From positions 62,001-126,000 of the forward strand of contig NC_015474.1 in assembly GCF_000211475.1 (NCBI RefSeq): a stretch of 64,000 nt of DNA. Reading direction: 5' to 3'. Source of the DNA: Pyrococcus sp. NA2 (GTDB taxonomy: Archaea; Methanobacteriota_B; Thermococci; Thermococcales; Thermococcaceae). Positions 40,008-43,063 of the stretch are shown here, piece by piece; the first letter of the stretch is position 1; the number at the start of each line of letters is the position of its first letter. The notes under the pieces were generated by a model. It saw nothing but the letters and a program-made list of their open reading frames with translations. It was not told the origin of the DNA and made no database searches. The position numbers were made by a program, and so were the translations under genes.

Positions 40008-40021
<14 letters not shown>

Positions 40022-41276
40022 CTTTCCTGAATTTTATTTTTGCCGTCAGTAACTTTTCTGTTGTGAAGAACTTAGCCGTGATGTAGAGGGTTATCACGGA
40101 TATCAAGGCAAGGTAAATTATGCTCTTGTAGAGCTGACCGTATTCGCCAAATATCATGGCCCTTGAAGCTATCACAGGATGACTGAATGGTATTGCGTAG
40201 AGGATGTACTTGATTAATGCTGGAAGGGAATCCACATCAACTATCATGAAAGCGAAAGTTGGAAAGAGTAAGGGCATCATAACCATGCTGACCAAAGTTC
40301 CAGCGCTTTTCGTGTCTTCAGCAAAGATTCCAAGAAGCATGGAGAGGGAAATTGCAAAGATTATCGACAGGAAGATTATAAGTCCAAACATTAACAAGGC
40401 CTGGGGACTTATGCTTAATCCTATGTCCTCAAGCTTTATATTGGATCCTCCAAAGCTTCCAAGATATCTTTTCATTCCTATCATGTAAGCCACCGCAGCT
40501 ATCAGTCCCATTATTCCAGTTCCAAGCATCTTTCCAGCAACAATTGAAGTCCTTGACACTGGAAGGGTTAGCAGGGTCTCAAGTGTCTTGTTCTCCTTCT
40601 CACTTGCTATACTGCTTGCAGCCATTTGAGAGACGAATGTAAACATTATGAATATAACAATTGGAATTGAAAATGCTTGAGAAGCTAATATTCCTGAAAC
40701 TATTGAAGGAGGCAGATTAACGATTCTCCCTTTAATTACTGAGTATCCCTTAACATCTATTGGATGAAGAACTGCCCCTGGGTTGTTGAACTTTCCCCTT
40801 ATCTTAAGCTTTGCCAACTCCTCACTTATAACGTTAACAACAGCATTAACCCTTGATTCACTGATGCTCTCTCTCATTCCAAGACTCATTCCTCTGAATA
40901 TACCGTACACCTCAACGGTTGCCCTCTTATCTTCTAAGATGCATTTTGTGAAATTCTTCGGTATGACAAGTAGGATGTTGTAGTTTCTGCTCTCAGCAAT
41001 CCTTAACGCTTCCTCCACACTATTTGCCTCTACCTTAATCACGGTAACATTTGGAGCAACCTCAAGTCCCTTAATTAATAGCCTTGCATACTCTCCTTCG
41101 TCAAAATTCGCTATGACAACTTTGGTCTCCTTCTTGGCTTCTTCCATTCCCACCTGTATCATTTGACCAAGAGCCGGGTATAGAACTAAAGGAACTATTA
41201 TAAGACCCACTATCAACCCTTTATCCCTAAACATATCCTTTAACTCCTTCTGAAGGACAATTAGGAAATCAGACAT
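40008..41276 (-). CDS. ABC-2 permease, NatB-like exporter
   Basis: Membrane subunit of 422 residues: an N-terminal helix (LIVGLIIVPLVLYPALGQ), a large extracytoplasmic domain (about 40-185), and five C-terminal helices. The ABC-2 block is SSIASEKENKTLETLLTLPVSRTSIVAGKMLG. It belongs to the Na+/drug-exporter-like NatB type. ATG overlaps the end of the ATPase gene, with GGAGGTC as ribosome site. It is the last gene of the XRE-controlled operon. Confidence 0.9.
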
Positions 41277-41994
41277 TTGAAACGACCTCCATAAATACTT
41301 CTTCTAAGTTTTCTGCTTTGTACGATTCCTTAAGCTCCTCAGGAGTTCCAATGGCTACTATCCTCCCTTTGTGAATCAAGGCCACTCTATCGCAAAGGTA
41401 CTCAACTTCGAGCATGTTGTGACTTGAAATGAGGAATGTTATTCCCTCTTTTGCAAATTTCTTTATTATCTTCCTTATTTCAAAGGCGTTCATAACATCC
41501 AAACCACTTGTAGGCTCATCGAGAATTGCAAACTTTGGCTTAACCATGAGGGCCCTTGCAAGTAAAAGTCTCCTTGTCATACCTTTTGAATAAGTTGAAA
41601 TCTTATCCATAAGCCTCTCTCCTAAACCGCTAAGTTCTATTCCCAGCTTCACCATCTTTTCTGCCTTATTCTCGTTCTTAGCATAAAGTCTTGCCATGAA
41701 CTCCAAATATTCAAGCCCAGTTAATCTCTTATAAGCTCCAGCCTCCTCTGGGAGATAACTTATCAACTTTCTAACTTCATTTGCCTCTTTAACCACGTCA
41801 TGTCCAAAGACCTCAGCCCTTCCCCCAGTGGGAAGGAGGAGGGTTGCTAAGATCTTCAAGGTGGTTGACTTTCCCGCTCCATTGGGGCCAATGAGCCCAA
41901 ATATTTCCCCTTCCTCTATCTGGAAGCTTATTCCCTTAAGGGCCTTAACCTTCCCGTAGTCCTTCTCAAGGTTTGAAACGATTACCGCGGTCAT
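41269..41994 (-). CDS. ABC transporter ATP-binding protein, NatA-like
   Basis: ATPase of 241 residues with Walker A GPNGAGKST, signature YSKGMTRRLLLARAL (SKGM variant), Walker B FAILDEPTSGLD and switch ISSHNMLE. The variant signature and partner NatB-like permease point to export. ATG 41994 follows GAGGTGG; the upstream in-frame ATG at 42003 lies inside that site. It overlaps the small membrane gene upstream by four bases. Confidence 0.93.
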   Translation of the reverse strand: MTAVIVSNLEKDYGKVKALKGISFQIEEGEIFGLIGPNGAGKSTTLKILATLLLPTGGRAEVFGHDVVKEANEVRKLISYLPEEAGAYKRLTGLEYLEFMARLYAKNENKAEKMVKLGIELSGLGERLMDKISTYSKGMTRRLLLARALMVKPKFAILDEPTSGLDVMNAFEIRKIIKKFAKEGITFLISSHNMLEVEYLCDRVALIHKGRIVAIGTPEELKESYKAENLEEVFMEVVSNV

Positions 41995-42338
41995 GAAAAC
42001 CACCTCGAAAACTTGTAAAGAATCAAACCTAGTGCGGCCAACACTATTCCAAATAACGAGATCACCAAGCTGTTGGCAGACAATCCAATTAGAGCTGCAC
42101 CAACACCACTAGCTAAGCTCATAAAGCTACTCATCGCATGAGCATTCTTGAATTTGTGAGTTGATGCCATTAGATATGAGCCGATAAAGATTAACCCGAG
42201 CTCTAAGAGAAGGAGCGGATAATTAATGCCCATCATGACTTTACCCGTGCTTAAATCCATGCAAGCCAACCGCTCAACAGGAGGCTTAACTATCGACACT
42301 CCCAATCCTATGAAGTATAGGAGTAACCCTTTTCTCAT
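41991..42338 (-). CDS. small four-helix membrane protein of the XRE operon
   Basis: Not recognised. About 115 residues with four hydrophobic helices (KGLLLYFIGLGVSIV; YPLLLLELGLIFIGSYL; SFMSLASGVGAALIGL; VISLFGIVLAALGLILY). ATG 42338 is 4 bases after GGTGAG. It lies between the XRE regulator and the ABC pair, and could be an accessory or immunity-like subunit of the exporter. Confidence 0.65.
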   Translation of the reverse strand: MRKGLLLYFIGLGVSIVKPPVERLACMDLSTGKVMMGINYPLLLLELGLIFIGSYLMASTHKFKNAHAMSSFMSLASGVGAALIGLSANSLVISLFGIVLAALGLILYKFSRWFS

Positions 42339-42353
42339 TCGACTCACCATTCA

Positions 42354-42554
42354 TTACTCTTCATCATCATATATGAATATATCCTCGATCTTAACACCAA
42401 AGAACTTTGCTATTTTAAAAGCCAATCTGAGGGATGGGTCATACTTCCCCTTCTCTATCGCTATGATGGTTTGCCTCGTCACGCCCAACTTCTTTGCCAG
42501 TTCCTCCTGCGTTAATCCATACATCTCTCTAAGTTCCCTTAGCCTGTTTTTCAA
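42354..42554 (-). CDS. XRE-family helix-turn-helix regulator
   Basis: A 66-residue Cro/C1-type HTH protein: LRELREMYGLTQEELAKKLGVTRQTIIAIEKGKYDPSLRLAFKIAKFFGVKIEDIF, the short YozG-like class often encoded beside DUF2178 membrane proteins. Start is TTG 42554, one base after the DUF2178 stop, with GGGTGATG as ribosome site. It probably binds the double inverted repeat at 43024-43055 and controls its own operon. Confidence 0.92.
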   Translation of the reverse strand: MKNRLRELREMYGLTQEELAKKLGVTRQTIIAIEKGKYDPSLRLAFKIAKFFGVKIEDIFIYDDEE

Positions 42555-42555
42555 G

Positions 42556-43011
42556 CTACATCACCCTTCCATAGTACCTTCTGAATGCGATGTGAAGGAG
42601 CATTGTGAACACTAATACGAACTCTGCAAGAATGAATGCATACCTAAGCTCTGGACTCTTCTTCTGCACTATTGAAAGGTAAACCACGAGGAACGCAAGG
42701 GTGATCATGAGAACTTGAAGGGTTCTCCTTGCCGATATCTCCTCAATCCTAAGGGTCCTCTCGTCCTCCAATATGTATCCTTTCCTTCTCAGGGAAGCGT
42801 AGTAGAGGTTAACTACCAAGGCACCAACTATCAACGTTGCAAAGGCCAGTGCTAGATCACCATTACTAACTGCCCATCCAAGGACGTAGCCCATAGTTAG
42901 GATTACAATTACTGCTGGGATCAGGACCTTTTTCTCCTCCTCTTTTGATAGATGGAGGAGTATAGCCGTGAATGTTATAACTATCAATGTCCAGATTAGT
43001 AGCCCATTCAT
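42556..43011 (-). CDS. DUF2178 family membrane protein
   Basis: A 151-residue protein of four helices (residues about 4-22, 30-48, 54-72 and 95-145 as two), with EDERTLRIEEISARRTLQ in the middle, the DUF2178 hallmark. The family usually neighbours small XRE regulators. ATG 43011 is 5 bases after GGTGAG; the longer frame to 43023 runs into the operator. First gene of the five-gene operon. Confidence 0.85.
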   Translation of the reverse strand: MNGLLIWTLIVITFTAILLHLSKEEEKKVLIPAVIVILTMGYVLGWAVSNGDLALAFATLIVGALVVNLYYASLRRKGYILEDERTLRIEEISARRTLQVLMITLAFLVVYLSIVQKKSPELRYAFILAEFVLVFTMLLHIAFRRYYGRVM

Positions 43012-43023
43012 AAATCTCACCAT

Positions 43024-43063
43024 GTAAAGTTTTCTTTACGTAAAGGAAACTTTACATTTATAA
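43024..43063 (-). promoter_or_regulatory. XRE operon promoter with two abutting 16-bp inverted repeats
   Basis: GTAAAG-TTTT-CTTTAC (43024-43039) and GTAAAG-GAAA-CTTTAC (43040-43055) lie end to end. The minus-strand box A TTATAAAT is the complement of 43056-43063. The two sites cover the expected initiation region and reach the ribosome site of the first gene. Four GTAAAG half-sites in this position strongly suggest a cooperative repressor operator. Confidence 0.75.

Follow-up and report, generated by a model that had tools for sequence, protein, structure and literature searches.

According to a published account (PMC3709268), CylR2 of Enterococcus faecalis represses a promoter, and a small membrane partner is needed for induction. 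The same account describes CylR1, with three predicted transmembrane helices, and CylR2 as being transcribed divergently from a lantibiotic operon and responding to a peptide.

Here, we describe an archaeal operon found in a 64,000-nucleotide stretch of the Pyrococcus sp. NA2 genome, which was analysed as a whole and is referred to as the window. Its promoter carries a 32-bp element that is, in our assessment, very probably a dedicated double operator at which the product of the second gene, a CylR2-like XRE protein, exerts negative autoregulation. The finding reaches beyond the initial annotation of this promoter, since the predicted unit of operator, regulator and membrane partner is common to Archaea and Bacillota. 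Operators usually drift fast, and it is unusual to find 24 specified bases unchanged from Thermococcales, Thorarchaeota and Woesearchaeota to Bacillus-like bacteria at loci where the regulator class and the partner are nearly always the same too. In the open-access literature searched, we found no paper that deals with this operator or with the function of DUF2178, and we regard the novelty as provisional.

The operon and its proposed double operator

Reading of the sequence and a pattern search both give two exact copies of GTAAAG-N4-CTTTAC at 43024-43055, abutting without a gap. Positions 43024-43039 read GTAAAGTTTTCTTTAC and positions 43040-43055 read GTAAAGGAAACTTTAC. The operon lies on the minus strand, where the order is the TATA box (43063-43056, TTATAAAT), GTAAAGTTTCCTTTAC and GTAAAGAAAACTTTAC without a gap (43055-43024), and then ATGGTGAGATTTATG. 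In the transcribed direction, the first, TATA-proximal palindrome (43040-43055) is GTAAAG-TTTC-CTTTAC, which is kept in relatives, and the second (43024-43039) is GTAAAG-AAAA-CTTTAC. The initial annotation had placed a double inverted repeat at 43024-43063, immediately after the minus-strand box A. The two exact 16-bp palindromes and their place next to the TATA element are borne out, but the pair ends at 43055, and 43056-43063 is the TATA box itself, preceded by a purine-rich, BRE-like stretch.

The operator is situated between the TATA box and the ribosome-binding site of the operon. Judging from the distance to the TATA box, transcription would start at about 43033, within the second palindrome. 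The first ATG of the DUF2178 reading frame (43023) adjoins the operator. The true start is more likely Met5 (ATG at 43011-43009), because a ribosome-binding site, GGTGAG (minus strand, 43012-43021), precedes it and close homologues align from about there; the ATGGTG that follows the operator is conserved in relatives.

A scan of the whole genome for GTAAAGN4CTTTAC, as the initial annotation had proposed, returned exact copies at this promoter only, the operator pair being the only two in 1,861,320 bp; a reversed control pattern gave no exact match in the same genome. Degenerate matches are uninformative, because with up to two mismatches the 64-kb window holds 3 matches versus 3.33 expected by chance. 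A wider regulon was also sought genome-wide at two mismatches, yielding 80 sites versus 93 control sites and hence no excess, and because such sites are at chance level in this genome we claim no regulon beyond the operon.

The five genes, all on the minus strand, are separated by at most 3 bp or overlap slightly. The first (42556-43011) encodes a DUF2178 membrane protein of 151 aa counted from Met5, which matches Pfam PF09946 with an E-value of 1.3e-13 and 51.3 bits, against a gathering score of 22.8. Its AlphaFold model (mean pLDDT 89.9, pTM 0.63) has five long helices (residues 2-21, 31-49, 53-77, 84-115 and 120-150), and a DER motif at residues 83-85 opens the fourth of them. The charged loop and helix bearing this motif probably face the cytoplasm, because the loop is rich in Arg and Lys and would follow the positive-inside rule. 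A fold search of the PDB with the model gave no match at E < 0.001 (best 1.1).

The second gene (42354-42554, TTG start) encodes the proposed operator binder, an XRE/HTH_3 regulator of 66 aa with the recognition region VTRQTIIAIE, which matches PF01381 (HTH_3) with an E-value of 2e-21 and 76.2 bits, above the cut-off of 23. The third (41991-42350) encodes a membrane protein of 119 aa with no family match in Pfam, NCBIfam or PHROG; it had been described as a four-helix protein and shows about three hydrophobic stretches instead. The last two encode an ABC transporter ATPase (41269-42003; PF00005, 3.7e-30) and an ABC-2 type permease (40008-41276; PF12698, 3.1e-41). As ABC_tran and ABC2_membrane_3 proteins, both above the Pfam cut-off, they constitute a predicted ABC-2 exporter. 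A type II toxin-antitoxin system with a Y4mF/HipB-like XRE antitoxin was considered and rejected, as the match to TIGR03070 (51.2 bits) falls below its cut-off of 71.65; a Pfam search for toxin families among the proteins of the operon returned none.

Distribution of the operator and its proposed regulator

Among 94 Thermococcaceae genomes, 81 contain the exact site, while the reversed control is at zero in most genomes, and 86 contain an orthologue of the XRE protein (E < 1e-28 in those listed). Both are present in 80 genomes, the XRE gene only in 6, the site only in 1, and neither in 7 (Fisher 1.3e-6, a value that ignores relatedness), so that the site accompanies 80 of the 86 XRE-positive genomes versus 1 of the 8 XRE-negative ones. 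In four of the six genomes with only the XRE gene (G003, G009, G035 and G052), the sequence upstream is truncated at the end of the contig or stops near the gene, and in the other two (G008 and G059) the sites have decayed. In the sole genome with only the site (G085), the operon is interrupted by the end of a contig.

We also counted how well the repeats are conserved at orthologous operons, using the 85 other XRE loci, the locus of G085 and the window stretch, less the loci with no usable upstream region. Five loci whose upstream sequence runs off the contig or ends early on it (L092, L127, L156, L162 and L171) were left out, leaving 82, among them the window (L183) and a locus with the DUF gene and no XRE gene on its contig (L177). 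The 24 specified bases are perfect at 69 loci, with one mismatch at 9 and two at 1; the repeats proposed as an operator are therefore conserved, with no more than 2 mismatches in 24 bases, at 79 of the 82 loci, whereas the best fit in shuffled upstream regions has 8-11 mismatches. The remaining three have an intact XRE gene despite a decayed outer palindrome (L112, 5 mismatches) or a single remaining palindrome (L140 and L174).

The operator stays between the TATA element and the ribosome-binding site, and the gap from it to the XRE gene ranges from about 316 to 2041 bp (median 761). In 79 Thermococcaceae loci, 1-5 membrane-protein reading frames fill this gap, and DER is found in 161 of the 171 frames. 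The array of small membrane proteins between operator and XRE gene differs among these relatives (L093-L176).

Some Thermococcaceae have further sites or regulators. One locus (L173, in G084) has two complete tandem operators 900 bp apart, as if two unit promoters were repressed in parallel. All six genomes of one genus (g5) that have the operon, and a further genome (G093), contain a lone exact third site where a second ABC-2 permease gene begins (L339:3540, L340:3781, L341:3495, L342:3575, L343:3763, L344:3502 and L345:3601). The permease behind it belongs to PF12679 in both cases tested (L339 and L345), and the XRE protein probably has its second target there. Lone sites at G063:C271 and in G022 were considered as targets and rejected; they lie in or beside coding frames and are taken as chance. 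A second group of small XRE proteins (L178-L181, helix VRRETIVFLE) has no GTAAAG site within 260-300 bp upstream.

The exact 32-mer is present in 70 of the 94 Thermococcaceae genomes and in none of 21 from the rest of the class. When about 85,000 species genomes were scanned, at least 120 matches were returned, whereas uniform chance would give about 0.001 matches in 257 Gb. The matches listed are mostly from Bacillota, with Thermococcales, three Thorarchaeota, two Woesearchaeota, one Nanoarchaeota and two other archaea. A homologue of the window XRE protein lies within the stretch examined in 113 of these 120. Five of the seven stretches that lack one are from Thermococcales (L224, L234, L285, L316 and L320) and appear to end before the XRE gene would come; another (L308) has its operator at the stretch end. 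At the seventh, in Bacillus paralicheniformis (L266:5509-5540), the operator stands before a gene for a DER membrane protein with no XRE homologue in 8 kb, and an XRE protein encoded elsewhere may act in trans.

Among the matches listed, the bacterial XRE gene usually starts 11-60 bp past the operator, and clustering of the downstream frames at 115 loci gives a small membrane protein at 100, an XRE protein at 100, an ABC ATPase at 32 and an ABC-2 permease at 23. All of 50 sampled operator-linked membrane proteins, including that of the window, have the D and E of the DER motif, and 90% or more have the R; Pfam assigns 17 of the 50 to DUF2178, 9 to DUF3796, 8 to DUF6442 and 2 to DUF6773 (E ≤ 0.01). 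A third palindrome beside the tandem was seen at the bacterial loci L247, L256, L257 and L309 (28 bp upstream) and L322 (abutting, with one mismatch). A tree of the XRE proteins (69 columns, 151 rows) did not settle whether transfer or descent accounts for the distribution.

The XRE proteins behind the tandem share, with few exceptions, the motif V[ST]RQ[TS][IV]I; L254, which counts as having no such helix in the tally, has an XRE protein that reads short owing to an in-frame stop. Among the XRE proteins and paralogues of the genomes compared, together with a few further loci, the tandem accompanies 48 of 58 with RQ[TS][IV]I versus 1 of 52 with another helix (RQTIS in this one case), the former figure being inflated in that most bacterial genomes compared were reached via their tandem, and because most genomes entered the comparison for holding it, only the contrast within genomes counts. 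For nine of the 58, the 260 bp searched contain no GTAAAG site; two of these (L430 and L447) are explained by a gene position further down an operon, and the rest are not.

Operators of the paralogues were sought as perfect 6-4-6 palindromes starting with G within 260 bp. GGAAAG-N4-CTTTCC was found for 3 of 3 RQT[IV]GSLE paralogues, GCAAAG-N4-CTTTGC for 1 of 2 RQTIT paralogues and GTATAG-N4-CTATAC for one RLTII paralogue, and proteins with RQTINAIE have GTAAAG-ATAT-CTTTAC (4), GTAAAA variants (2), GTCAAA variants (2) or no site (3). In place of the tandem, one RQTIIAIE protein (L470) has the ATAT sites at a distance of 44 bp, which speaks against a strict helix-site rule. As a lead from few cases, the pattern suggests that residue 31 of the XRE protein reads base 2 of the half-site and residue 28 base 4.

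The XRE protein had been named as the regulator from its proximity, and this assignment is now supported by co-occurrence across genomes, by the adjacency of site and XRE gene in two domains and by the helix-site differences of the paralogues. It is conceivable that another regulator, encoded elsewhere, binds the palindromes and that the XRE gene is simply a member of the operon, since proximity alone names no binder and the B. paralicheniformis locus has the operator with no XRE gene nearby. We regard this as unlikely: the XRE and DER membrane proteins are the chief recurrent neighbours of the site in both domains, seven genomes that have no XRE orthologue have no site either, and paralogues with other helices carry other sites.

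Promoter context and proposed mechanism

Among the matches listed, 80 of 94 bacterial loci have a TTGACA-like box (at least 5 of 6 bases) within 45 bp before the operator, and in 68 of the 94 the box starts at -18 or -17 from it. With a spacer of 17-18 bp, the bacterial -10 box falls on N4CT in the first palindrome. At these loci the N4 begins with TA in the first palindrome in 74 cases and in the second in 4, and in 52 both the -35 and the -10 box match at least 4 of 6 bases at the exact places. When TATAAT was sought freely over the 45 bp upstream, 36 were found, versus 52 in shuffled sequence, and this lack of an excess is as expected if the -10 box sits inside the operator.

In the Thermococcaceae, a TATA-like element abuts the operator at 79 of 79 loci, and TTGAC occurs at the bacterial place in none of them. 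By sequence reading, an A/T-rich, TATA-like stretch also abuts it in the eight other archaea among the matches listed. The bacterial operator is, on this reading, fused to a predicted promoter of the sigma-70 type and the archaeal one is adjoined by a predicted TATA box. The placements of the TATA, -35 and -10 elements therefore give the site the same functional position under two different polymerases.

We infer binding by the XRE protein, repression and the dimer stoichiometry from the sequence data, and for repression it is the position of the site that guides us. Two XRE dimers would lie side by side, one on each 16-bp palindrome; a Cro/C1-type dimer suits the 10-bp centre-to-centre distance of the half-sites. 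The bound dimers would cover the DNA from just past the TATA box to about +10, so that the initiation complex would be kept from forming or from leaving. The operon would in this way repress itself, and the exporter would be made only once the XRE protein lets go, the signal for release most likely coming via the DUF2178 protein. That this protein is a membrane sensor, and that there is an exported substrate, are guesses on our part.

Position cannot prove the sign of regulation, and the XRE protein might bind the operator as an activator or switch between activation and repression. We think this quite improbable, because in all 79 archaeal relatives the site follows the TATA-like element and overlaps the expected start, and the bacterial site contains the expected -10 region. 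Sites over the start or containing the -10 box are repressor positions.

The repeats might also work at the RNA level, as hairpins in the 5' leader that serve as an attenuator or a stability element, and not as a DNA operator, since perfect inverted repeats can fold and the second palindrome is probably transcribed in part. This is very improbable, as the letters of the half-sites are fixed (1.66-2.0 bits per position) and do not covary, the first palindrome lies upstream of the expected start, and identical letters are found in species with unrelated promoters. That the element is a repeat by chance or belongs to a dispersed repeat family would fit the raw palindromes, and copies with two mismatches are indeed at chance level, but this is refuted by an operator locus that is usually single per genome and conserved across 6 genera and two domains.

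Comparison with known systems

Beyond the proposed repression by the operon's own XRE protein there is a wider proposal, which we offer tentatively as possible. A small XRE repressor, a membrane protein with a DER loop and a fixed 32-bp double operator, the operator being the constant part, may form a transferable membrane-signalling unit that works in Bacteria and Archaea and is fitted to two unrelated initiation machineries, with the -10 box inside the first palindrome in one and the operator directly after the TATA box in the other. On membrane perturbation, the cytoplasmic DER helix would remove the XRE protein from the DNA, and a code of residue 31 with base 2 and residue 28 with base 4 would separate paralogous units. 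The analysis provides a binding-site prediction for a large family of unannotated small XRE proteins and gives the DUF2178, DUF3796, DUF6442 and DUF6773 proteins one testable role, that of membrane partners. It also offers one operator that is open to study with two kinds of RNA polymerase.

The window's ATPase and ABC-2 permease form a pair of the same kind as the DrrAB- and NatAB-type ABC-2 exporters. The two proteins score below the NCBIfam cut-offs of the named families listed, such as DrrA and DrrB.

The closest solved relative of the XRE protein is the 65-aa PDB entry 9k3w, with the title ‘Transcriptional regulator, PbsX family’ (E-value 1.1e-19), whose helix is SRQTINALE where the window protein has TRQTIIAIE. 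CylR2 (PDB 1utx), like the window protein, is an XRE protein of 66 aa, and residues 3-63 of the latter align to 4-64 of 1utx with an E-value of 2.7e-13, so that the relation spans almost the full length and takes in the C-terminal part. The corresponding helix of CylR2 is SRQTINGIE, with Asn at residue 31 where the window protein has Ile. A separate group of small XRE paralogues of Bacillota with an RQTIN helix (L416, L424, L426 and L465) have the same GTAAAG and CTTTAC half-sites with N4 as the window; they differ in that the N4 is always ATAT and the sites are single or, at three of the four loci, two copies 44 bp apart rather than abutting. The likeness to the CylR1/CylR2 pair extends to the small integral membrane partner, which in the window is the adjacent DUF2178 protein. 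In the arrangement given in the CylR1/CylR2 account, the pair is divergent from a lantibiotic operon, whereas in the window the regulator pair is encoded inside the predicted ABC-2 exporter operon that it would regulate.
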